This document shows, one piece after another, positions 40,894-62,793 of a stretch of 64,000 nucleotides of DNA (the first letter of the stretch is position 1; each line of letters opens with the position of its first letter). Origin of the DNA: Isoetes taiwanensis (taxonomy: Eukaryota > Streptophyta > Lycopodiopsida > Isoetales > Isoetaceae); NCBI GenBank assembly GCA_021234155.1, contig JAJEKV010000049.1:3563487-3627486 (forward strand), read 5' to 3'. Below the pieces are notes generated by a model, which saw nothing but the letters and a program-made list of their open reading frames with translations, searched no databases and had not been told where the DNA came from. Position numbers and translations under genes: made by a program.

Positions 40894-41693
40894 TGTTATG
40901 GACCAAGCCTTGGGACCCGGAGTCTGCCATGGGAATGCCACGATATGGCCTGGGAACGTCCCCAGCAGTAGCACCGCCTAGGGGCGGCATGGGGTTATAA
41001 TTTTAAATGGCTAAACTTTCGTAAGCTAAAGTGGCCTTTTAATTAAAAGATAAAAAGAAAAGCTACTTAACCTTTGATTTGGGAGCGTGACATGGCTTGA
41101 CTTTATTGGCTGAAGGTTTTAAAAGGCAAAACCGATCTGTAACTTCGCGATTACAGCAGGTCAGTTGGATCAGCTAAAAACAGTTCGAATCTGAGCTATA
41201 CTTGCTCGATTCTTGCTCTGGAAAAGGCCCATGTGCCTTTTTCCAGCTAATCTTGGCCTTAGTGGCCCTATAAAAAGATTTGATGGGGTTTTTGGAAATC
41301 ACGGTTTTTTTTTGGAGCCAAGCAATTGGAGCAATCTGCCTTACCTGGTAGCTTGATCTCTTGTTGCTGGAGGTTTTGATCCATTGCAAACTGATTGAGC
41401 ATTAATTCGACCTGTTCTAAGCCACTTCACTATTTGGTGTTACCTTGAGGTGGCGCTCCATTCTTGGAGTGTTTCTGACTGCTCTTTGAGCAATACTGCT
41501 ACTGCAGTATCAAGTTCTTGTGTTGGAACTTCTGAAGCTGGGCTTCAGGCTGATCGTTGGTCTGTAGCAGTCGTGCAGTTGATCGTTGGGATCTGTAGCA
41601 GTCGTGGGTGGGGAGCTCTGGGAGCTCACGGTTGAGGGGAACTCTGGGAGTTCTAGGTAGCGCGATCGGACCTACTTTCCGTAGGCTGTGACA
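40894..41693 (+). repeat. 5' LTR of element C
   Basis: 800 bp, TGTTATGG...GTGACA. A short inverted repeat (CCAAG/CTTGG) lies within the first 30 nt. The copy differs from 62008-62793 at many sites, visibly more than the LTR pairs of B or D, indicating an older insertion. Confidence 0.9.
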
Positions 41694-43735: not shown

Positions 43736-45370
43736 TGTGACGTTCCAGGGAAATATACGCCATTAATACGTATATTCCTGGATCCGTCACCATACAAGTC
43801 TACACATGTAGCCTTTTATACCTTAGAAGTGGCAAGGGGCACATATCTAAGTTAATTGTTTAACTTAGATAACCTTAGGATAAGGCCCATTTCCACATGG
43901 CCTTATCCTATTGGGCAACTGCCACACGGCCCCATCCTATTGGTGCCACGTGGCATCCCATGTGGACCTTCACCTATATTGGCTCAAACCCTAACCCTAG
44001 ACCCCTTTCCTGACTCTAGCACCTGAACACTCATCTACACACTCGAAACCCCGTTTCGAGCATCGTTCGCCGTAGCATAGCCTAGTGCAGCAGCCCCCGA
44101 AGTGTGTGATGATCGTGGAGGGAGCACGACTTCGACCACGTCAAGGAGCAATGGAGACACCAAGGAAGTGCGTCTGGAGCAGGTAGGTGGAGTAGAGTTC
44201 ATAGTGGTTCATCTAGAAGTTAGTACTCCAGATGGGTCTATATGTTGTATCTAGAGTAGAGCCATCCTAGAACCTTTGTTGAACATCTTGAACCCTAATC
44301 AAGGAACCCTAACTGTAAGTTAGATATGTATGATTAGGTTAAGATGTTCTTATGATGTTACCATGGTATGATGTGAGGTGATGATGGTTGATCATGTTTG
44401 CTCCTCTTGTATTGGGAAGGGGGGTAGAGACCTAGGGCCATATCTAGTATGCTCCTAGTGTAGATCCCTTAGTTCCTATTATTATGCGGCCTGTGCATAG
44501 GAACCCACCGGGCTATGGAGGCTATGATGTGACTCAGCACTACACAACGGGGCTAGCGGCAATGCGGAGGGAGGATCCCTGCCGAGTGGGGGCTACGGGG
44601 GATCCCATAGTGGGCTAGGCTTATGGTCGGTCACTTCATGTGGGCCGAGCATGTGTCCGACACCTCCTGGGGCAATGGTGTTGCCCTGCCTCTCAAGAGT
44701 TGCAAGTGTCAGCTTGGCTCTTGTTTTGGGGGGTTCAGTCGGGTATGAATCGTGTGTCGCCACGATTCTCTAGCCGCCCGAGGAGTCTCTAGACCCCGGG
44801 ATGGGGAGATGCAACCCGTCCTGCCTCGACGGTCCAGGGAGATGCAATCTGGAATAGTCCCGATGGGTGATGCCATGGGATTGCGTATCCAGAAGGCTAG
44901 AGTCATGTCAGAGCCTGATCTGACCCATCTGCAAAGTATGCACAGGAGGGGCGGATGGAGTGGTCAACCCTAGCCATTGTCTATAGCCAGCCCCGCCATT
45001 GTTATGACTCAGTCTGCTCTACCTTGAGGCCTATCCAGTCAGTTTACCTCCTTATGTGGCGGAGCCACGGGTAGGAGCTCTCATGTTTTATGGCATATGA
45101 TTATGTTCCTTGCACCTATGGATATGTGGATGAGCTGCCCATCGAGGTAGTATGATGTATTATTCTTGTTAGTTCTGACGATGTTTATGCTTCCGCTGTG
45201 ATAGGAGCCCATAGGGGAAGGGCGCGCAAGACACCTTCGTGTCCCCTTCCCGCACTACGGTGATTCCAGAGTGCCGGACAGATGGAGGGCCCGTGCGGTC
45301 GGAGGACCGGATGGGGGATTTCCTACGGAGTGTACGGCTGGGAGCCGTATATTTAGTAGGGAGCGTCACA
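43736..45370 (+). repeat. 5' LTR of element D
   Basis: 1635 bp, TGTGACG...CGTCACA, with 7-bp terminal inverted repeats. The first 55 nt (43737-43790) form a long hairpin: GTGACG, CCAGG and ATATACG pair with CGTATAT, CCTGG and CGTCAC. CCACGTGG at about 43947 and a telo-box AAACCCTAA at 43986-43994 lie in the U3 region. Confidence 0.95.
43986..43996 (+). promoter_or_regulatory. Telo-box in element D LTR
   Basis: AAACCCTAACC, kept in the 3' LTR at 55278-55288. Telo-boxes occur in plant promoters of ribosomal and histone genes and bind TRB-type factors. Its regulatory role here is inference. Confidence 0.4.
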
Positions 45371-45371
45371 A

Positions 45372-45383
45372 TGGTATCAGAGC
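45372..45383 (+). promoter_or_regulatory. Primer binding site, tRNA-iMet
   Basis: TGGTATCAGAGC starts one base inside the 5' LTR of element D; it is the standard chromovirus primer site. Confidence 0.95.
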
Positions 45384-45992
45384 GATGTTCTTGGTTGACC
45401 AAGAACTAGCACTGACCAATATCCTTGAAAGTAGTCTAACAGGCCTGATAGGGTGCGAAATGAAAATTTCCACCATGGAACCTCGTAAATAGGGGAAAAA
45501 TTTTTCTCCTAGGTAGTGGGTCCGTAAGAATAGGCTAAGTCATTAGATGAGTAAAAGAATGAGTCAAATTAACATTCTAGTAAAATTGGAGTGGAAATTA
45601 TGAATCAGCATCAAATTTCACCTAATATGGGTCGAAGAATCATGACAATCCGAGATCTGGGTGAAAAATGGCGCAAATTCATAATTAACACTTCAAACCA
45701 TTAGGAAAAATTCGAAATTTTAATATAATATTGTATTAAGTAAATACTAATAATTAAGTATATTGGAGTAATTAATAGGGGAGGCTAATTATTACACCTA
45801 TTAATGGTAGGAGAATATTCCTTAGGGAACCTTTCTTTTTTGAATATCTTCTTGCCACCTCATTTCCCCCCAAACCCTACCTGCCACCTGCTCTCTCTTG
45901 ATCAGCCTTACGTCACCCATTTCTCAGACCGTAAGATATGGCCCGAACCAAGCAGACCTAACAGGAAAACTAGCCTAAGACGGACACCGTCA

Positions 45993-46991
45993 ATGGCGGC
46001 AGCAGCAGCAGGTGGCCATGGCAAGCAAATCCCAGCGCACCTTCGGCCGAAGCCAGGAGACGAGGCATCGTCTTCTAGCGATGAGACCTTCCACATCTCG
46101 CAGGAGGAGGCCCCCAACAGCAGCAGCCCTTCATCGGCAAGCACTCAGCGAACCGACGAGAGTCGCCATTTTGGGCCCCTGTCGGGCGATGAGGTGGAGC
46201 ATCAAGAAGAAGAGCGCCGGGAGGAGAAGGCCGGGCACCAGCAGGCAACAGCTTCTTCTAGCAAGGAGAAGAAGGGGAAGGATAAAGTAGCGGAGTGGCC
46301 AGAAGAAACGGCGGCAAGGAAGAAGAGGGAGAGGGAGTTGCGGGACAAGGAGCGGAGGACCAAGAGGAGGAATGACAAACCTCGCAAGCCTCGCGGGACG
46401 GTCACAATAGAAGAACCTCGCCCATGCGAGGTAGATGAAGAGGACGAGGAGGAAAGAAGTGGCCCAAGCCACCCAAGGTAGTTAAGAAGCAGAAGGTGGG
46501 TGAGCGAGAGTTCACACTCAAGCAAGATCGCGAATTCAAGCGCAAAATGAAGGCGTACCAGGAGTACCTTCGTCGTTGGACGGGGTATAATGATTGGTAC
46601 TGTAAGCAGAATGTCGAGAGGTTTGTCAAGGGCGGGCGGCCGAAGAACCAGTCGAAGCCGCCTCCACCTAGGCCGGAGAAGCCCAAGAAGAAACATCATG
46701 GGCCCAACTCTCGACACGCGCGGGTGTTTCGGGAGATTAGACACTTTCAACAGTGTACTAATCTCCTGATAGGAAGGCGCCTTTCGAACGCCTCCTCCCC
46801 GAAGTCATGCAGGAGTTCCGACGGATTACAGGGTTACCCCTCTAACCACCCGGGCCCTGCAAGAAGCCTCAGAAGCAGAGCTGATCCAGCTCTTCGAGGA
46901 GGGCAACCTTTGCGCCATCCATGCCAAGCGGGTAACGGTTATGCCCAAAGACCCACACTTGGCGCAGAGGATCCGCAAAGAGAGGCCCTAG
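45993..46991 (+). CDS. Histone H3-like ORF of element D (three frame breaks)
   Basis: ATG at 45993 in ideal plant context (CAATGGCGG); the stop is TAG at 46989. About 330 codons. Residues 1 to about 155 are Ser/Glu/Lys-rich and disordered-looking; a basic, aromatic segment follows ([19 protein letters not shown]). The last ~90 codons are a histone H3 fold: [16 protein letters not shown] (alpha-N), [13 protein letters not shown] (alpha-1), [17 protein letters not shown] (alpha-2), [16 protein letters not shown] (46905-46952), then [22 protein letters not shown] is nearly the canonical H3 sequence, and loop 1 has roughly canonical length, unlike the longer loop typical of CENH3. The usual H3 tail with K4, K9 and K27 is absent. 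Frame changes at about 46455, 46770 and 46842 each look like one missing base. It stands between the primer site and gag, on the element's strand. Confidence 0.85.
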
Positions 46992-47749
46992 GACCTCAAA
47001 TTTTGTAATTTTGATTAAAATTAAAGCTTTCCAGTGTAAACTGGTTTTTCTTAATGCATATAAGTTCTCTTACTCTGTAAATTGGATTGCACTATGTTTC
47101 AAAAATGTAAGTAATTAAGCTAAATCGTAGTAGAATTTTTTGTAAATTGGTTAGAAACCCGAGGTTAGGACAACATTTCAGCAAAAATCATCGAAGATCG
47201 GCAAAAATCAGGCGACCTGGGTGAGATCGCGCTAATCGACCCTGCGTTCGCAACGCAGGCCCATTTCGCGCGGATTCACCCGGTTACATTGAAATTTGGC
47301 TTCTAGATGATAATTTTGCTTGAAATAAGTTGCTAGCTAGGTTAGAATTGATCCAATTAGGCATGTTAGTATCTTGTAGCTCCTAGAAATGTTGAGTTTT
47401 GACCCAAATCAGGCGAACCGGGTGAGACCGCGCCAATCTACCCTGCGTTCGCAACGCAGACGCATTTCTCGCGGATTCACCAGGGTCGCCCAATTTTGAC
47501 CTAGAATTAGCCAAATTTGACCCAACAAACGGCCATGTAGTGTTTCTTGCTTTGTTTTGCTTAGATTTGCACTTCATAGTAGTTCATTTGGAGACCTATA
47601 GCCTTAGAACAAAAGTCTCTCCCATCAAGAACCCTTGTGCACGAAACCCCAGGCAGACCATATTCTATAAAAAGGGCCTCATTTGCCATTTTCCCTTCAC
47701 CAGAACTGTTCCTAGCATCTTAGGCAATTTCCCAACCTTTCATTGATCC
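46992..47749 (+). other. Element D spacer between extra ORFs
   Basis: AT-rich, without a credible frame, apart from two copies of a structured ~80-bp repeat listed separately. Confidence 0.6.
47206..47484 (+). repeat. Two ~79-bp repeats with nested palindromes, 200 bp apart
   Basis: Copies at 47206-47284 and 47406-47484 share AATCAGGCGA, GGGTGAGA, CCTGCGTTCGCAACGCAG and GCGGATTCACC. The inner CTGCGTTCGCAACGCAG is a perfect palindrome in both (47242-47258, 47443-47459). GGGTGA and TCACC arms enclose it, so each copy can fold as a double hairpin. The inner stem is unchanged while the flanks differ, which suggests constraint. Confidence 0.75.
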
Positions 47750-49297
47750 TTGCAAGCCATTTTCTACACTCATTTCTGCTCAATGGTGCCTAGCAACTTT
47801 GTTAGATGGTATAATGCTGCCAGCCACATCCATGACTTTCCTGCTGATCAAGCCTTCCAGGTGTTTGACTATTTGTTTGATCTTCATGCAACCCTAACTA
47901 GGACACCCTTCTATACTGATATCATTTGCCAATACGATCAATATATCCTACCCTGGGAAGTTAGCTTACTCCCTAGGGGAGGGAATTCTAGCCAAGCCCT
48001 AGGAAGAGAGATGGGAGGATCCAAGGGCAAGAACCAGCTGTGGGATAGGACTAGAACCATGCCCGACTACATGACCTGCAGGTATAATAGGCATAGATAC
48101 CTCTCGTCACAGATCTGACAGCCCTTGCTCTATTCATGCAGTATAAGTCAGTCAATAGGGTGGGAGAACCTTCCATTCAGCCTTTAGACCTAGCACCACT
48201 CAACACTCGAAGGGACCAAAGCCACATCATTGAGATAGACTCCTCCGAGTACGAGTACCATGGCACGACATCAGGGACACCAACACTGCAGATTGAGCAA
48301 GACTACGAGCAGCTAGGGGAAGAAAATCCAGATTGGGAAAGCAGGGAGGCAGCGAGGATGGAGAGGTACATGGCCAGGCACGATGACGACATCAGGCGAG
48401 CCTACGAGCCACCAATCGGCATCACAGCCCTATCACCTATAGTCATCGACGGAGAGGAGTACATCTTGGCAAACGACATCCTCAACCTACGTTACTGCCA
48501 AGAAAAAGGGCTTAGGATCGACGAGCTCTTAGGCTTGATGGCACAGGAGCAGAATATCGATTTCATTGACTACTCCTACCAGGAAATCCCAAGGGAGTTA
48601 GCAGAGCGACACTCCTATGCCGGGGAGACAATGTCAGATATAGCAGCCTATCAGCAGATAAGGGAGCTCTATCGACAACAAGAACCCATCATCCCAGAGG
48701 AGGAGTTCCAAGAAATACAAAGCAGGTTGTACAAACCAGGAAGAGGCCCAAGCTCTAGCCGGACAGTCCATTCCAGGAGTATGCGGGAAGCATCCAGCAG
48801 CATCAGAACACAACTACCATATGTGGAGGGATCATGAAGACCTCTTGGCAGTAGATGTCTACGGCGGGGCAACTCAAAGGAAGGGCACAGGATCACGAAG
48901 CACATGCAAGGGTACGGCGCTCCGCTACTACCTCCCAGTCCTCAGTCAAGGGCAGATGATAGCCTTCCACAAGGAGTTCAGCCCAAGAGAGGAAGAGTCT
49001 GTGGCGCTCCTCATAGCACTCTCTGGCTTCGGGCAGCACTCCAAGATATACGGCCATGCGGATCACATCGTTCTCTTCAAGAGATCTGTGGCACTCCACT
49101 GCCTCGACTTCGCCAGAGGCCACCTCAGGGACGCGACACTGTCAGTAGTAGCGGCAACCGCACCAGAACTCCCGGCACCGGAAATGGCCCGAGCACTCGA
49201 GGGAGGTTCAACCAGGAACATCTTGCGCAACCTCGGCAAAGGCCTTCGGCTTAGGGACGTCAAGAATTTCTTCAAGTTGACGAAGGGCCATCGATGA
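47750..49297 (+). CDS. Second extra coding region of element D, unknown (frameshifted)
   Basis: Three overlapping or abutting frames (47750-48118, 48136-48837, 48821-49297) most simply form one coding region of about 500 codons with two single-base breaks. The first part has FVRWYNAASHIHDFPADQAF; the middle is acidic and Tyr-rich (IEIDSSEYEYHGT, IVIDGEEYILANDILNLRY); the last has ALRYYLPVLSQGQMIAFHKE and ends basic (NLGKGLRLRDVKNFFKLTKG). I see no zinc knuckle, protease, histone fold or membrane segment and recognise no family. It sits between the H3-like ORF and gag on the same strand. An extra gag-like or nucleic-acid-binding protein is possible but unproven. Confidence 0.5.
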
Positions 49298-49533
49298 TAA
49301 ATAATTTCTGTTTCTAATTATCTTCTAAGTTATATTGAATGTCTTCACTCCTATATATCATTATCATGTATCTTATATCAATGTGTAGCTTTTATATTAA
49401 TGACTATAAATTGTCTTTAACTTATAAGTGCAATTTTGGCATGATTTCTTTTATACTCAACAAGAATTCACTTGTAAATAAGGATGAATAATATATAACT
49501 AAAGTAACAGTATTGATGACTAATACTTGCAGC
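49298..49533 (+). other. AT-rich spacer ending in a splice-acceptor-like site
   Basis: About 235 bp, very AT-rich and non-coding, ending in ATACTTGCAG at 49524-49533. The gag frame becomes open immediately after it. Splicing of a longer leader onto gag is possible; the donor is not identified. Confidence 0.4.
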
Positions 49534-50806
49534 CAGGAACATCGGCTCAAGTTCTCAAGGCCAGGGCCGATATCACCAATGGGTACCTAGAAACTTATTT
49601 GGACGTGAACAAGACGACAACAACGAGGAAATGACGGTGGAATCAATCAACGCAAGGCTCACCCAGATGAGGAACCAGATGCACCAGCTGATTCATTGGG
49701 TCACCCCATTGATGAACGCTCAAGAATATGCACCTGCATCACCACCTCCTCCACCACTACCTCAGCAAGGCGTTGAGGAGGTTCCACAACCAGAAGGGGA
49801 AGGCAATCAGGGAAATGTCAGGGACAGAAAGAGAAAAAGAAGAAACCGAAGGACCCCAACACCATCCAGCTCCAGTTCATCAGATGCTTCTGGCAGCCAG
49901 GACAGTTCTAGCTCAGAGAGTGAGTCCGATACATCACAGGTAAGAGCCAGGGCAAGGAAGACAGATGACTACCAGAAGAAAGTTGACAGCGCTATGAGCA
50001 ATGTATGGAAGACTAGGAAGTTGGATCAGTTTTCAGGGAAAGACAGGTGAGGCATGGAGGCAGAAGCTTGGCTTGATGAGATGGAAGAGTTTGGCAATTC
50101 TTATGGCATGAAGGACAAAGATATAGGGAAGGTTGATACAGCAAACTTAATAGGAGCAGCCAGAATTTGGTGGAAGGGCTATGCGAAGTCCAATAAGCTG
50201 AAAAAAAACAGTTGCAGATTCAAGATCTTCAGCAAGGCCTTTCGCAAACATTATGTGCCAAGATCACATACTAGCAGGCAGATCCAGCAATTCTACAGGT
50301 TGAACCAAGGTACCTTGTCAGTAGCCAAGTACACAAAGGAATTCATGCGTCTCAAGCTCCATGTTCCCGGAATTTCTGAAAGGCAAGCGGTTGATGGATA
50401 CATTGAGGGATTGAACAGCAATATCAAAAGGCTAGTCCGAGCAATCAACCCAAAGACAGTAGCAGAAGCCGAGGATAAAGCTATAAGCTTGGAAGAAGCA
50501 CCACAAACTCCAGGGGAGAAACAGTTTCTAGACAGCCTGCCCAAGGAAAAGAGGCAGGAATGTATCGAGAAGAAGCTATGTTTTAGGTGCTTCCAGCCAG
50601 GGCACCGAACACACGATTGTCCATTCGTCATGCAGGCAGCTTTGGCAGAACTTGCAGATTGGGATTCACCAACCGAGGGAGACAACGAAGAGGACGACCA
50701 GCAGGAGGCGCAAGATTTCATTAGGGTGAGTGCCATATTTGTGCAGCTATTGAGTCAGATGATGTTGAAAATCAGTCCACAGTCATTGCGGCTGAGGGAA
50801 TCATAG
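49534..50806 (+). pseudogene. Element D gag (nearly intact)
   Basis: ATG at 49631 begins MTVESINARLTQMRNQMHQL. A Pro-rich and then Arg/Ser-rich linker follows, then a single in-frame TGA at 50048-50050, then the capsid block with ARIWWKGYAKSNKLKK, YVPRSHTSRQIQQFYRLNQG and PGISERQAVDGYIEGL. The zinc knuckle is CFRCFQPGHRTHDC (about 50578-50620). Apart from the TGA the frame runs to 50806. The frame is also open upstream to the acceptor-like site at 49533. Confidence 0.85.
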
Positions 50807-51246
50807 ATAGCAGTCCATATCTAGTCTTGATAGATACAGGTAGCTCTCACAACTTTGCCTCTCCTAGGCTGGCTGCCCTAATGAAGAATAAAGTTTTGAA
50901 GTCCAAGCCAAGACCAGTGAGTATGGCAAATGGTGCCATTCGTCACACTAAGGGGAGGAGGATCACATTTGACATAGACCTTAGTGGAAGCAAGTGGCCG
51001 ATGGGGGCAGAGGTCATGGATATTGGAAAGTATGACCTTATAGTGGGAATGGAGTTCCTAAAGCCGGCTAAAGCGATGATTGACTGCGATCGTAATGAGA
51101 TCTCCATGACTGCACCGGACGGCATCAGATTCATAGTGAAAGGTAAGAAGGTAGCTTCTCTCATGCAGTGTATTTCTTTGAAGCAGCTAAGGAAAAGTAT
51201 AGAAAGAAACAAGGTGGAGTATATCCTGAGGGTTAGAGGCAATTGA
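50807..51246 (+). CDS. Element D aspartic protease
   Basis: [19 protein letters not shown] is a canonical retropepsin active site (D-T-G). [20 protein letters not shown] is the distal block. It is in a different frame from gag, so a frameshift or recoding separates them; position and spacing are otherwise normal. Confidence 0.8.
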
Positions 51247-51259
51247 ACCATCTAAAGAG

Positions 51260-52882
51260 AAAGGAAGTGACTTAAGTGAAAATCAGCTGCCCAAGCCGGT
51301 AGCAAGGCTTGTCAGAGAATTCAATGATGTATTTTCGGATCAAATCCGTCAGCTACCACCTTATAGGGGTGTGGAGTGTGAAATCACACTAGCTCCAGAT
51401 GCGAAGCCTACCAGTAAGGCACCTTATAGGATGAGCACCCCAGAGTTGATTGAGCTCAAGAAGCAGCTACAGGAATTGCTTGACCTTGGATTTATTAGGG
51501 CAAGTGTGTCTCCTTTTGGAGCACCCATACTCTTCGTGAAGAAGAAGGACGGGAGTTTAAGAATGTGCATAGATTATCGCCAGCTCAACAAGCAGACGAT
51601 AAAGAATAAGTATGCCTTGCCAAGGGCAGATGATTTGATGGACCAGCTCCAAGGAGCAAAAGTATTCTCGAAGATTGACTTAAGGTCAGGGTACCATCAA
51701 ATAAGGATAAAGGAAGAAGATATCTATAAGACTGCCTTTAGAACGCGGTATGGGCACTTTGAGTTTACGGTCATGCCCTTTGGATTATCGAATGCCCCGG
51801 CAACCTTTATGCGTCTCATGAACGACATCTTCAGGGAGTTCTTAGATGAGTTTGTCATCGTTTTCTTCGACGACATTCTAGTCTACAGCAAGTCCATTGA
51901 AGATCATTGTCAACATTTGAGAAGAGTGTTGGAAAAGTTGAGACGGCATCGCTTGTATGGGAAGCTCTCCAAATGCCACTTTGCTACTGAAAGAGTGGAG
52001 TACTTGGGCCACGTGATATCAGCGGAAGGGATCTCCACCGACCCCGCAAAGATAGAAGCAGTAGTTGATTGGCCAGCTCCAAAGAATGTGGCAGAAGTGA
52101 GGAGCTTTCTAGGTCTGGCAGGATATTATAGGAAGTTCGTAAAGGACTTCGCCAAGTGGGCGTCCCCTTTGACGGAACTCACTAAGAGTGTTAAGGTGAA
52201 AGATTGGAGAGCACATTGGCTAGAAAATGTTCAAGCTTCATTTGAAAAGCTTAAGGAAGCCTTAACAACAGCACCAGTGTTAGTTCTGCCGGATCCAGAT
52301 AAGAACAAGATAGTAGCAACGGATGCAAGTAAGATAGCAACAGGTGGAGTCCTTATGTAAGAAGGAAGAGTAGTAGCCTATGATTCCAAGAAGTTGAACG
52401 ACGCCGAGCAGCGTTGTCCAACCCATGATCAAGAACTTCTAGCTATTGTGAGAGCCCTTCGTATTTGGAGGCATTATTTGCTTGGAAGGAAATTTCAGTT
52501 AGATACTGATCACCAGAGCCTCCAATATATCTTTACCCAACCACTCCTCAATCTAAGGCAAAGGAGGTGGATGGAATTCCTAGAAGAGTATGATTTTGAG
52601 ATTGCTTATAAGCCGGGTAAGTTGAATGTGGTTGCTGATGCTCTCTCTAGAAGACCCCTTGAGACGAGAACACATTGTAATGCTATATCAACTCTTTCGA
52701 GTGGGTATGGCAAGAAAATTGAGGAGACATTACCATCTGATGGTGATTTCAAGGAGGTATGGGCAAGCCTCTCTAAGGAGGCTAGAACAGATAAGGAACG
52801 GGAAGCCTTCAAACATTATAGGAAGGAGGCAACCTGTTATACCATAAAGATAAGTTGTGTGTGCCCGAATCGTCAGGTGTAA
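51260..52882 (+). pseudogene. Element D reverse transcriptase-RNase H (one stop codon)
   Basis: A long frame with all RT blocks: [60 protein letters not shown], catalytic [33 protein letters not shown] and [20 protein letters not shown]. RNase H keeps [43 protein letters not shown] and NVVADALSRRP. One TAA at 52358-52360, where related proteins have Gln or Glu, interrupts it. The frame shifts near 52860 at the entry to integrase. Otherwise it looks functional. Confidence 0.9.
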
Positions 52883-54202
52883 GGAAGTTAATTCTTCATG
52901 ACACACACAACAGCCCAATAGCAGGGCATGCGGGTTTTATGAAGATGTATTTCAAGATTCGGAGTAGCTATTTCTGGCCGGGGATGAAGAAACAGATAGC
53001 CAGATATATTCGGGAGTGCCAGTTGTGCCAGCAGACTAAGGCAGAGCAGCTTTGAATCCCAGGAGCCTTGGAACCTTTAGCAGTGCCGAATGCAAAATGG
53101 GAAGTGGTAAGCATGGATTTTATCACAGGACTTCCTAGAACTCTACGAGGCAAAGATGCATTAATGGTTGTCGTAGATAAATTATCTAAGATGGCACACT
53201 TTGCGCCTTGCAAAACTACGGACACAACCTTAGACACTGCCAAGCTATTTGTAAAGGAGATTTTTAGACTCCATGGCATGCCTCGAGAGATAATATCAGA
53301 CAGAGATTCCAAGTTCATGAGTGCATTTTGGCAAGATCTTTTTGCTACGATCCAAACCAAGCTCTCGATGAGCACGGCATACCATCCTCAGACGGATGGC
53401 CAGACGGAGCGGACGAATCGCATCATCGAAGATATGCTCAAAAGTTATGTGTGGAATAAGCAATCCAAGTGGGATGATTACATCCACTTGGTAGAATTCG
53501 CCTACAATAGTACGAAGCAGGAGTCATCTCAGATGTCTCCCTTCATGATCAATTACGGGTACCAGTGCCTAACACCGGATACTTGGCACAACCCTGTGTC
53601 AAAGGTTGAAGTATCCCAGCAGATGCTAGGAGATATGCAGCAGCTGGTGGAAGAAGTAAGGGGGTACTTGTTAGCAGCAAGAAGTCGGCAGAAGAGTGTA
53701 GCCGACATGCACAGGACCGTAAGGGAGTTCAAGGTAGGTGATAGCGTGTGGTTGAAGATCAAGGTAAAGCAAGCTAAGCTTCGCATAGGGAATTGCAAGA
53801 AGCTTGCCCCTAGGTGGGCTGGTCTATTTAAGATTTTGGAGAGAGTGGGCTCTCAAGCCTACAAGTTGGATCTTCCGGCCCATCTCAAAGTTCACAAGGT
53901 CTTCCACGTAAGTTTATTGAAAAGGCACAATCCTAACCCTAATGAGATCTTGGATACTCCAACCTTGTTGGAAATGATAGAAGAGCAAGTTGAAATTGTG
54001 CCTGAATTGCTTCTTGATAAGTCATTCAAGAAGACTAGGAGATCTCAGTTCCCACTATTTGGTCAAGTGGAAGCACTTGCCCGTGGAAGACGCAACATGG
54101 GTATTGAAGCAGGATTTGGAGAAGCAATACCCGGACTTCATGAAGGAGTTTGATGGGCGAGTCGTCTCCGACCTGGTCGACCCCGACTCATCAGGAGGTT
54201 AG
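52855..54202 (+). pseudogene. Element D integrase with chromodomain
   Basis: Zinc-binding HHCC region at 52855-53055 (HDTHNSPIAGH, CQLCQQTK), ended by a TGA at 53053. The core keeps the whole D-D-E triad: MDFITGLPRTL, IISDRDSKFMSAFW and TDGQTERTNRI. A GPF/Y-like segment (LAPRWAGLFKILERVGSQAY) follows, then HKVFHVSLLKRH. A chromodomain, HYLVKWKHLPVEDATWVLKQ, lies in a shifted frame at about 54050-54150. Chromodomains steer chromovirus integration to chromatin with particular histone H3 methyl marks, which is notable beside an H3-like ORF in the same element. Confidence 0.88.
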
Positions 54203-55032
54203 CTTAGTATGCTTCTTAGTTAGCCTTAGCTCTGGCAGATGTATTCTAGCTAATGGAATACATATGCCAGAATCTTGGAACGTGTAGGTGATAATGAGAT
54301 ACGCCTTTAAGGCATTCTCTAGGCCAACATGCACCAAGAGGTGCGCATGACCAATAGGGCCATGCGAGAGAGGAAGTGAAGCATGGTGGGCGATGATGGG
54401 ACATCGGTCGGATGCTCTCTATGCCGCGATGCGGGGCTCGCACACCTGGCCATAGGGGGGTCATGGTGAAGGTCAAAGTGATCATGCGCGATGATGGGAT
54501 CGTGAGACGTTCCCTAACTTAAAACCCTTGGGGCATGATGCACTAGGGGTACTCGGCATCGGGTAACCGAGTACAAGGTAGCACTTGATCATGGGCAATG
54601 ATGGGATCATCTTAAATGGTCCTTAGGCTCAAATCCGAAAGGGCCATGATCGAGTGCAAGGTATTAGGTAAGGGGGGTGGTCCCCTAAAACCACAAATTT
54701 ATTAATTAAACTAACGTAATGTGCTACTCGTGCAGGCAAGTGAGAAGCGAGCATCGAGGAGGGCACATTACGAGAAGATGGGGGAACCATGATTTAGATT
54801 TAAATTATGAACCCCAATAACTCTTATAATAATGTTTTGATTTATTATAGGGAGTAACCTTGTTAAGGCTATATAATTTTGTATATATACAAATATAGCC
54901 TAAAATTTTGACAATTAACTCTTAATAGGAAGTTGATCGTTTAAATTGAATTAAAGTTATATACTTATGTTGTTTTGTAGGGATAGTGTAGGTTCGTCAC
55001 CTTAGCGCAATGCTGAGGACAACATTGTCTTA
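54203..55032 (+). other. Element D 3' untranslated region
   Basis: Non-coding. A loosely repeated GATCATG[CG]GC[GA]ATGATGGGA motif occurs at about 54480 and 54586. Confidence 0.5.
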
Positions 55033-55044
55033 AGGGGGGGAGAA
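55033..55044 (+). promoter_or_regulatory. Polypurine tract of element D
   Basis: AAGGGGGGGAGAA abuts the 3' LTR start TGTGACG at 55045. Typical plus-strand primer for Ty3/gypsy elements. Confidence 0.9.
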
Positions 55045-56657
55045 TGTGACGTTCCAGGGGAATATACGCCATTAATACGTATATTCCTGGACCCGTCACC
55101 ATACAAGTCTACACATGTAGCCTTGTATACCTTAGAAGTGGCAAGGGGCACATATCTAAGTTAATTGTTTAACTTAGATAACCTTAGGATAAGGCCCATT
55201 TCCACATGGCCTTATCCTATTAGGCAACCGCCACACGGCCCCATCCTATTGGTGCCACGTGGCATCCCATGTGGCTCAAACCCTAACCCTAGACCCTTTT
55301 CCTGTCTCTAGCACCTAAACACTCATCTACGCACTCGAAACCCCGTTTTGAGCATCGTTCGTCGTAGCATAGCCTGGTGCAGCAGCCCCCGAAGTGTGTG
55401 TATGATCGTGGAGGGAGCACGACTTCGACCACGTCAAGGAGCAATGGAGACACCAGGGATGGGAGGAAGTGCGTCTGGAGCAGGTAGGTGGAGTAGAGTT
55501 CATAGTGGTTCATCTGGAAGTTAGTACTCCAGATGTGTCTGTATATTGTATCTAGAGTAGAGCCATCCTAGAACCTTTGTTGAACATCTTGAACCCTAAT
55601 CAAGGAACCCTAACTGTAAGTTAGATATGTATGATTAGGTTAAGATATTCTTATGATGTTACCATGGTATGATGTGAGGTGATGATGGTTGATCATGTTT
55701 GCTCCTCTTGTATTGGAAGGGGGGTAGAGACCTAGGGCCATATGTAGTATGCTCCTAGTGTAGATCCCTTAGTTCCTATATGCGGCCTGTGCATAGGAAC
55801 CCACCGGGTTATGGAGGCTATGATGTGACTCAGCACTACACAACGGGGCTAGCGGCAATGCGGAGGGAGGATCCCTGCCGAGTGGCGGCTACGGGGGATC
55901 TCATAGTGGGCTAGGCTTATGGTCGGTCACTTCGTGTGGGCCGAGCATGGGTCCGACACCTCCTGGGGCAATGGTGTTGCTCTGCCTCTCAAGAGTTGCA
56001 AGTGTCAGCTTGGCTCTTGTTTTGGGGGGTTCAGTCGGGTATGAATCGTGTGTCGCCACGATTCTCTAGCCGCCCGAGGAGTCTCTAGACCCCGGGATGG
56101 GGAGATGCAACCCGTCCTGCCTCGACGGTCCAGGGAGATGCAACCTGGAGTAGTCCCGATGGGTGATGCCATGGGATTGCGTATCCGGAAGGCTAGAGTC
56201 ATGTCAGAGCCTGATCTGGCCCATCTGCAAAGTATGCACAGGAGGGGCGGATGGAGTGGTAAATCCTAGCCATTGTCTATAGCCAGCCCCGCCATTGTTA
56301 TGACTCGGTCTGCTCTTCTATCCAGTCAATTTACCTCCTTATGTGTCGGAGCCACGGGTAGGAGCTCTCATGTTTTATGGCATATGATTATGTTCCTTGC
56401 ACCTATGGATATGTGGATGAGCTACCCATCGTGGTAGTATAATGTATTGTTCTTGCTAGTTCTGACGATGTTTATGCTTCCGCTGTAATAGGAGCCCATA
56501 GGGGAAGGGCGCGCAAGACACCTTCATCTCCCCTTCCCGCACTACGGTGATTCCAGAGTGCGGGACAGACGGAGGGCCCGTGCGGTCGGAGGACCGGATG
56601 GGGGATTTCCTACGGAGTGTAAGGCTGGGAGCCGTATATTTAGTAGGGAGCGTCACA
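55045..56657 (+). repeat. 3' LTR of element D
   Basis: 1613 bp; matches 43736-45370 from TGTGACG to CGTCACA. The terminal hairpin is retained. The main size difference is a missing ~17-bp piece before the telo-box. Confidence 0.95.
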
Positions 56658-62007: not shown

Positions 62008-62793
62008 TGTTACGGACCAAGGGCAAGTCGCGCTTCCGGGCCTTGGGACTGGTAGTCTGCCATGGGAATGCTACGGGTGGCCTCGGAATGTCCCGAGCAG
62101 TAGCACCACCTAGGGACGGTATGGGGTTCTAATTTTAAATGGCTAAACTTTCGTAGGCTAAAGTGGTCGTTTAATTAAATTATAAAGTCCTTAAAGAAAA
62201 GCCACTTAACCTTTGATTTGGAGGCGTGACGTGGCTTGGTTTTATTGGCTGAAGGTTTTAAAAGGCAAAACCGACTTGTAACTTCGCGATTAAAGTAGGT
62301 CGACCGGATCAGCAACAAACAATTCGAATCTAAGCTATACTTGCTTGATTCTTGCTCTGGAAAAGGCCCATATGCCTTTCTCCAGCTAATCTTGGTCCTA
62401 GTCGCCCTATAAAAGGATTTGATGGCGTTTTTGGAAATCATGTTTTTCCTTTGGAGCCAAGCAATTGGAGCAATCCGCCTTACCATCTTCTGTTGCTGGA
62501 GGTTTTGATCCATTGCGAATTGATTGAGCATCAATTCGACCTATTCTAAGCTACTTCACTATTTGGTGTTAGCTTGAGGAGGCGCTCCGTTGTTGGAGTG
62601 TTTCTGATTGCTCTTTGAGCAATACTGCTACTGCAGTATCAAATTCTTGTGTTAGAACTTCTGAAGCTGGGCTTCAGGCTGATCCTGGGGATCAGTAGCG
62701 ATCGTGCGTGGGGAGCTCTGGGAGCTCACGGTTGAGGGGAACTCTGGGAGTTCTAGGCAGCGCGATCGGACCTGCTTTCTGTAGGCTGTGATA
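62008..62793 (+). repeat. 3' LTR of element C
   Basis: 786 bp, TGTTACGG...GTGATA; the terminal CA is mutated to TA. Preceded by the purine tract AGGGGAGGGGAAGAAAT (61991-62007) and followed by the target duplication TGGAG (62794-62798). Confidence 0.92.

Follow-up and report, generated by a model that had tools for sequence, protein, structure and literature searches.

A histone H3-type gene under purifying selection in chromodomain LTR retrotransposons of Isoetes taiwanensis

The closest precedent that we found for an H3 gene on a mobile element is H3L, an H3-like ORF carried by a hAT DNA transposon of the fungus Pyrenophora tritici-repentis (PMC3538342). H3L has insertions in its tail, and its fold is described as matching neither H3 nor CenH3 completely (PMC3538342). 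It is reported in 26 nearly identical recent copies and, according to its authors, has possibly drifted (PMC3538342). Transposon-borne H3 therefore has a precedent. Histone sequence has also been captured by a Helentron in Culex, but that rolling-circle element holds broken fragments of H4 and H1/H5 type (PMC4067079).

In plants, Gypsy elements of orchids are described with an ORF for an AlkB-type demethylase, a host-type domain that has been kept and maybe acts on host control (PMC9289625; PMC7264820). A screen of LTR retrotransposons in 121 angiosperm genomes found the extra domains PMD, G-patch, AIR1, DUF1409, YgdH, L26, B3, ArgoL2 and 2-ODD, and no histone is among these nine as named in its text (PMC9289625). 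Plant chromoviruses are described with gag, PR, RT, RNase H, integrase and a C-terminal group-II-like chromodomain, and with a tRNA-type primer site and a 5-bp target duplication (PMC6317226, PMC3350952).

Here we describe element D, an LTR retrotransposon of Isoetes taiwanensis that resembles the plant chromoviruses in all of these features and differs from them by two extra ORFs before gag, one of which encodes a histone. Compared with H3L, the carriers are plant LTR retrotransposons of two diverged families, selection is shown, and in family D the first nine tail residues are kept, apart from the replaced alanine 7. Compared with the orchid AlkB-type ORF, the domain carried by element D is a core histone. 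No LTR retrotransposon encoding a histone was reported in the open-licence literature that we searched, and as far as that literature goes this is the first plant retrotransposon lineage with an H3 gene under selection.

Structure of element D and its H3-like ORF

The window analyzed here is a stretch of 64,000 nucleotides of I. taiwanensis DNA (assembly GCA_021234155.1, contig JAJEKV010000049.1, positions 3,563,487 to 3,627,486 of the forward strand). Element D is a chromodomain LTR retrotransposon at positions 43736-56657 of this window. Its features are listed in Table 1.

Table 1. Features of element D, in window coordinates
Feature	Position	Strand	Remarks
5' LTR	43736..45370	+	ends TGTGACG...CGTCACA
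Primer binding site TGGTATCAGAGC	45372..45383	+	opens the leader
H3-like ORF	45938..46991	+	four frame breaks in the window copy; between primer site and gag
H3 tail	45938..45968	+	MARTKQT, frame break, then RK in the frame of the ORF of the earlier note
Insert between H3 tail and fold, about 270 residues	45969..46714	+	no Pfam match
H3 histone fold, alpha-N to C-terminus	46727..46988	+	
ORFB, second extra ORF	48136..49297	+	one frame break; between H3-like ORF and gag
gag	49631..50806	+	Pfam Ty3_capsid 3.6e-15
pol: protease, RT, RNase H, integrase, chromodomain	50827..54202	+	broken in the window copy
Polypurine tract	55032..55044	+	directly before 3' LTR
3' LTR	55045..56657	+	

Element D has the TG..CA LTR ends, 5-bp target duplication (CTCAG on both sides), primer binding site and polypurine tract of a chromovirus. 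The domains also stand in chromovirus order, RT - RNase H - integrase, with the chromodomain C-terminal. The primer site is one that we take to be of the tRNA-iMet type. Pfam matches in pol were RVT_1 (1.7e-40), rve (4e-10) and Chromo (2.3e-10). The gag-pol region of the window copy contains 4 frame breaks and 3 in-frame stops in about 4.6 kb. Over 1604 aligned bases, the LTR pair shows 45 mismatches and 6 gaps (K2P 0.0287). This is the value of a young insertion, so the divergence of the element D H3 from host H3 predates the window copy.

Element D lies inside an older element, seen as LTR-like direct repeats at 40907-41691 and 62040-62791 that are 85.6% identical. Two other pairs of long direct repeats in the window (7328-9231/15637-17543 and 21739-24214/31393-33861) are 95-96% alike. 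RT-like matches lie between the repeats of both pairs, which are probably two more LTR retrotransposons.

The earlier note on this DNA had described an H3-like ORF in sense orientation between the primer site and gag, starting at 45993, with three frame breaks, an H3 fold at its C-terminal end and an N-terminal part unlike any H3 tail. Its place and orientation are borne out by the LTRs, the primer site, the polypurine tract and the Pfam matches downstream. The fold is confirmed as well: the piece 46833-46988 matched Pfam Histone (PF00125) at 1.3e-13, and the 53-residue C-terminal piece matched solved H3 chains in the PDB at 1e-16. The start had to be moved to the ATG at 45938, from which the ORF reads MARTKQT, and when counted from this ATG the frame breaks are four. 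MARTKQT at 45938 was the sole match in the whole window when five H3-tail strings were tried in six frames. The N-terminal part is unlike an H3 tail only after about residue 9. The insert that follows changes, from N to C, from Ser-rich through mixed basic and acidic to Lys/Pro-rich.

Four breaks in about 1.05 kb are denser per base than those in the gag-pol of the same copy. When the window copy was compared with shuffled sequence, 0 stops were reached in 1/1000 shuffles with one frame switch allowed, and 146/1000 shuffles were equally stop-free with four frame switches. Given these 146 shuffles, the openness of the window copy alone is weak evidence, which leaves the other copies to carry the argument. 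AlphaFold gave no usable model for the 110-residue fold piece (pLDDT 47).

For ORFB, the first piece had no Pfam match, an NCBIfam search returned no match, and a PDB search returned nothing significant, with one chance-level match at E 0.78. A homologue (about 30% identity, 1.8e-6 per piece) stands at the corresponding place in L105, part of a copy of the related F2 family described below; ORFB is therefore a gene common to family D and F2. Between the H3-like ORF and ORFB, we observed a direct repeat pair (47205-47283 and 47406-47484, 89% alike) with the palindrome CCTGCGTTCGCAACGCAGG.

The earlier note had also proposed that the integrase ends in a chromodomain, a module that reads H3 marks. 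The chromodomain is present; the reading of H3 marks is not supported, as the cage is incomplete. Group I chromodomains, which read H3K9me, are defined by three aromatic cage residues (PMC3350952, PMC6317226). The chromodomain of element D lacks this set, with cage positions 1 and 3 non-aromatic in the window copy and likewise in the five copies, out of 20, where a chromodomain was found. The known mode of H3K9me reading is therefore not expected, and we rejected the element D chromodomain as an H3K9me reader acting through the known cage. By its residues it appears to be group-II-like, and the ligand of group II is given as unknown (PMC6317226).

Family D copies and purifying selection

The genome (1.66 Gb) was searched with the H3 region of the window. 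Copy numbers are lower bounds from scored matches: 40 matches were scored, and 1660 further first-look candidates were unscored. These at least 40 matches, including the window copy, are 84-100% identical and nearly all full length. In 3 of the 40 copies the ORF is open from MART to the stop, with 384-389 codons. The three open copies start with MARTKQTYRK. A stretch of about 270 residues, enriched in Ser, Glu, Lys, Arg and Pro, then leads to the H3 fold, which ends in RIRKERP or RIGKERP.

Flanks on both sides were fetched for the first 20 copies. Upstream, 14 of them showed the 5' LTR end and 16 the leader. Downstream, the N-part of gag was found in 13 and the C-part in 11. RT followed in 9 copies; eight of these RTs are close (91-97%) and the ninth (26%) belongs to another element. 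The 5' LTR end and a close RT occurred together in 7 of the 20.

A reverse search from the RT gave at least 40 scored matches (7476 candidates unscored). For fourteen of the 40, a listed H3 match lies on the same strand no more than 32 kb upstream, and 9 of these 14 pairs, the window included, are 4.9-5.9 kb apart. We looked at 8 short stretches among the 26 RT matches without a listed H3. One contained a clear H3 fold, one a weak match, two the leader sequence in a shifted position, and four nothing. Many family D copies include the H3 ORF as a regular component. Relatives of element D without it may exist, since four of the eight stretches showed nothing.

At the DNA level, H3 ORF copies are 84-93% identical to the window copy, compared with 93-96% for RT copies. 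The histone gene therefore changes faster than the RT within family D.

Nonsynonymous (N) and synonymous (S) variants were counted in an alignment of the 40 copies, with codons more than one base off the commonest codon left out here and in the N/S counts below. Singleton variants comprised 303 N, 122 S and 26 stops, whereas variants present in at least 3 copies comprised 88 N, 236 S and 2 stops (p 1e-33). In the fold alone, the counts were 63 N/34 S for singletons versus 10 N/58 S for shared variants (p 7e-11). Both shifted reading frames of the same alignment reversed the contrast. By codon position 1/2/3, shared variable sites numbered 76/87/231 and singleton sites 116/107/60. Among tail codons 1-10, variants in at least 2 copies were 0 N and 9 S. 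The RT (9 rows; N/S 53/57 singleton versus 5/43 shared) and the integrase (8 rows; 41/60 versus 3/24) gave a contrast of the same kind as the H3 ORF. When the H3 test was restricted to the leftover 4-row subset, no significant contrast was seen (p 0.20).

The element-borne H3 is under purifying selection. The simplest reading is that copies decay freely once inserted and that the replicating lineages kept the protein. Occurrence across copies and purifying selection are what mark a selected additional ORF of an LTR retrotransposon, and both were found. The H3-like ORF is thus a regular gene of a chromodomain Ty3/gypsy lineage.

The H3 tail and fold in families D and F2

The sequence MARTKQTYRK is found in 23 of the 27 rows that have all ten codons. 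Position K4 is Lys in 34/34 readable rows and K9 is Lys in 34/35. At residue 7, 32 of 35 rows have Tyr, two have Met and one has Ser; none has Ala. Compared with the canonical ARTKQTARKS, family D keeps ARTKQT-x-RK, and residue 10 is variable.

The fold of one open copy is identical to host H3 at 58 of 88 positions. Host H3 residues also occupy 22 of the 28 positions that we took as nucleosome-contact or H3-dimer sites. The window copy equals H3 in 30/39 of the columns that are invariant across the H3 and CENH3 references and in 26/58 of the other columns (p 0.0019). Judged by its residues, the family D fold is diverged, and it shares its length and main predicted DNA and dimer contacts with H3.

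A canonical H3 query returned at least 150 scored places (9031 first-look candidates). Fifteen of the 150 are 97-99% identical to H3 and were taken as host H3 genes. The other 135 are 72-87% identical, and their open frames reach 567 codons. Two long ORFs of the F2 type were picked for their open frames. They encode proteins of 411 and 409 residues with a C-terminal H3 fold (PF00125, 1.2e-41 and 4.3e-41). The N-terminal part of these two proteins had no Pfam match, and BLAST found no similarity to that of element D. Both tails start MA(N/I)TK, one of the two has an internal ARKS, and neither has ARTKQT.

One F2 copy was traced along its element (L103, L105, L127); the other F2 copies were followed over the fold only. 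In the traced copy, the LTR repeat shows 91% identity, the primer site precedes the ATG by 761 bases, and the start of a 3' LTR is present. Compared with element D, it is 30% identical in ORFB, 46% in gag, 50% in the protease and 63% in the chromodomain. Its integrase is 82% identical over the first 108 residues and 43% thereafter. No match to RT or RNase H was found in this copy. The F2 elements make up a second chromovirus family; their H3 fold is near-canonical and follows an N-terminal region that differs from that of family D.

Across 22 F2-type folds, the mean pairwise dN was 0.011 and dS 0.66, with pairs without a computable dS dropped and with 20 of the 22 folds being those best ranked by similarity to H3, which favors a low dN. 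The contrast between singleton and shared variants was not significant in F2 (p 0.068), and the shifted frames look different again.

In the tree, family D falls outside a group of F2 and canonical H3 (support 78, long branch). Because D and F2 are not joined in this tree, the histone may have been captured once, followed by rapid divergence in D, or twice. We also observed a third H3-like fold type at two places, L109 and L114 (KRRHRYKPG..., TKDLQLARR), which is near F2 yet distinct (pair support 98). Plasmid and viral collections gave no match except one viral contig, IMGVR_UViG_3300033144_007251 (L126), which matched in the H3 fold only. This fold is of H3 type, 38% like the query, and looks like an unrelated viral histone.

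The central proposal of the earlier note, a chromovirus encoding an H3-like protein, is supported by the copies, the open ORFs and the selection. It had asked whether other copies of element D carry the ORF, intact and under purifying selection. All 40 scored matches carry it, intact versions exist among them, and the shared variants are mostly silent against near-neutral singletons. It had also held that absence from other copies, together with a target duplication or poly(A) of its own around the ORF, would point to a chance insertion; the place between leader and gag is kept instead, and F2 has the same order. The earlier note was right about the H3-like ORF and overlooked the H3 tail tip at its start, the ORFB common to F2 and a far larger set of H3-like ORFs. 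Its suggestions that the protein guides the integrase or alters insertion sites drew no support from this analysis.

Possible roles of the element histone

A histone of the canonical H3 type was captured between the primer site and gag and has been kept by selection, and we think it likely that it acts in chromatin together with host H4. The element H3 would be made early and would pair with host H4. It could then enter nucleosomes, or H3-H4 tetramers, on element cDNA or new insertions. The altered tail and bulky insert would change the action of host chromatin enzymes and readers there, to the benefit of the element.

A further proposal, which we make only tentatively, is a nucleosome resistant to silencing. 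The element H3 would replace host H3 on the cDNA or on fresh insertions, and RNA-directed and K9-based silencing would fail. Alanine 7 of H3 matters for K9 writers and for HP1-type readers. Because K4 and K9 are kept but residue 7 is changed, the tail could act as a decoy or as part of such a nucleosome. The ARTKQT tip would be usable by K4 enzymes and readers, the changed residue 7 would spoil the surroundings of K9 for SUVH4-6, CMT3 and SHH1, and the group II chromodomain of the element could recognize the element H3. In plants, SHH1 is described as reading H3K4me0 and H3K9me and recruiting Pol IV, and the CMT3 chromodomain as reading H3K9me2 and maintaining CHG methylation, with SUVH4-6 writing K9 (PMC7617993).

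The main rival to a chromatin role is that the histone binds or packages nucleic acid in the particle or the cytoplasm, condensing RNA or cDNA without forming nucleosomes, its fold being kept for dimerization and charge. The position as first ORF before gag and the long basic, acidic and proline-rich region fit this, and strong selection on the fold would suit any dimerizing DNA binder. However, the tail tip is kept residue by residue, with no shared N change in codons 1-10, and packaging needs none of it. The L1/L2 DNA contacts and the H3-H3 surface also match host H3, at the 22 of 28 positions given above. We regard packaging as unlikely.

It is far less probable that a host H3 gene is simply carried along and amplified without benefit to the element. 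Gene capture is described as common in LTR retrotransposons (PMC7264820), the window copy is broken, and no more than 3 of the 40 copies have an open ORF. A passenger, however, would not account for shared variants that are mostly synonymous beside near-neutral singletons, for the conserved tail tip, or for the H3-like ORF and ORFB standing in the same order in two families.

That the ORF derives from a CENH3, or acts as one and steers the element to centromeres, is highly improbable. The sequences that we take to be CENH3, Arabidopsis CENH3 included, served as references for the identities and the tree. The alpha-N helix is indeed nearest to Arabidopsis CENH3 (11/15, versus 9/15 for H3). Over the whole fold, however, the window copy is identical to plant H3 at 56/97 positions versus 46-51/97 for three plant CENH3s. 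Loop 1 has the length found in H3, not that of the longer CENH3 loop, and the tree places the three plant CENH3s in a separate group. We therefore rejected a CENH3 identity; the family D fold is, by these comparisons, of the H3 type.

That a host histone pseudogene landed by chance in a single element, as the broken ORF of the window copy might suggest, is of negligible probability; this reading was rejected, as the ORF is present in 40/40 scored matches across the genome, stands in the same place wherever flanks were found, and is under selection.

Few host proteins are as constrained as the core histones, and these bear the marks that plants use to silence transposons. An H3 preserved by an element, with the tail tip intact and residue 7 changed, would be a direct route to acting on nucleosomes. 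Several questions become testable with it: whether mobile elements bring chromatin of their own, by what means group II chromodomains locate their targets, and which residues of the H3 tail must be retained or altered by a parasite living under H3K9-based silencing. The lineage also provides a large natural collection of selection-tested H3 variants, and the element H3 may alter how the plant packages or silences these retrotransposons.
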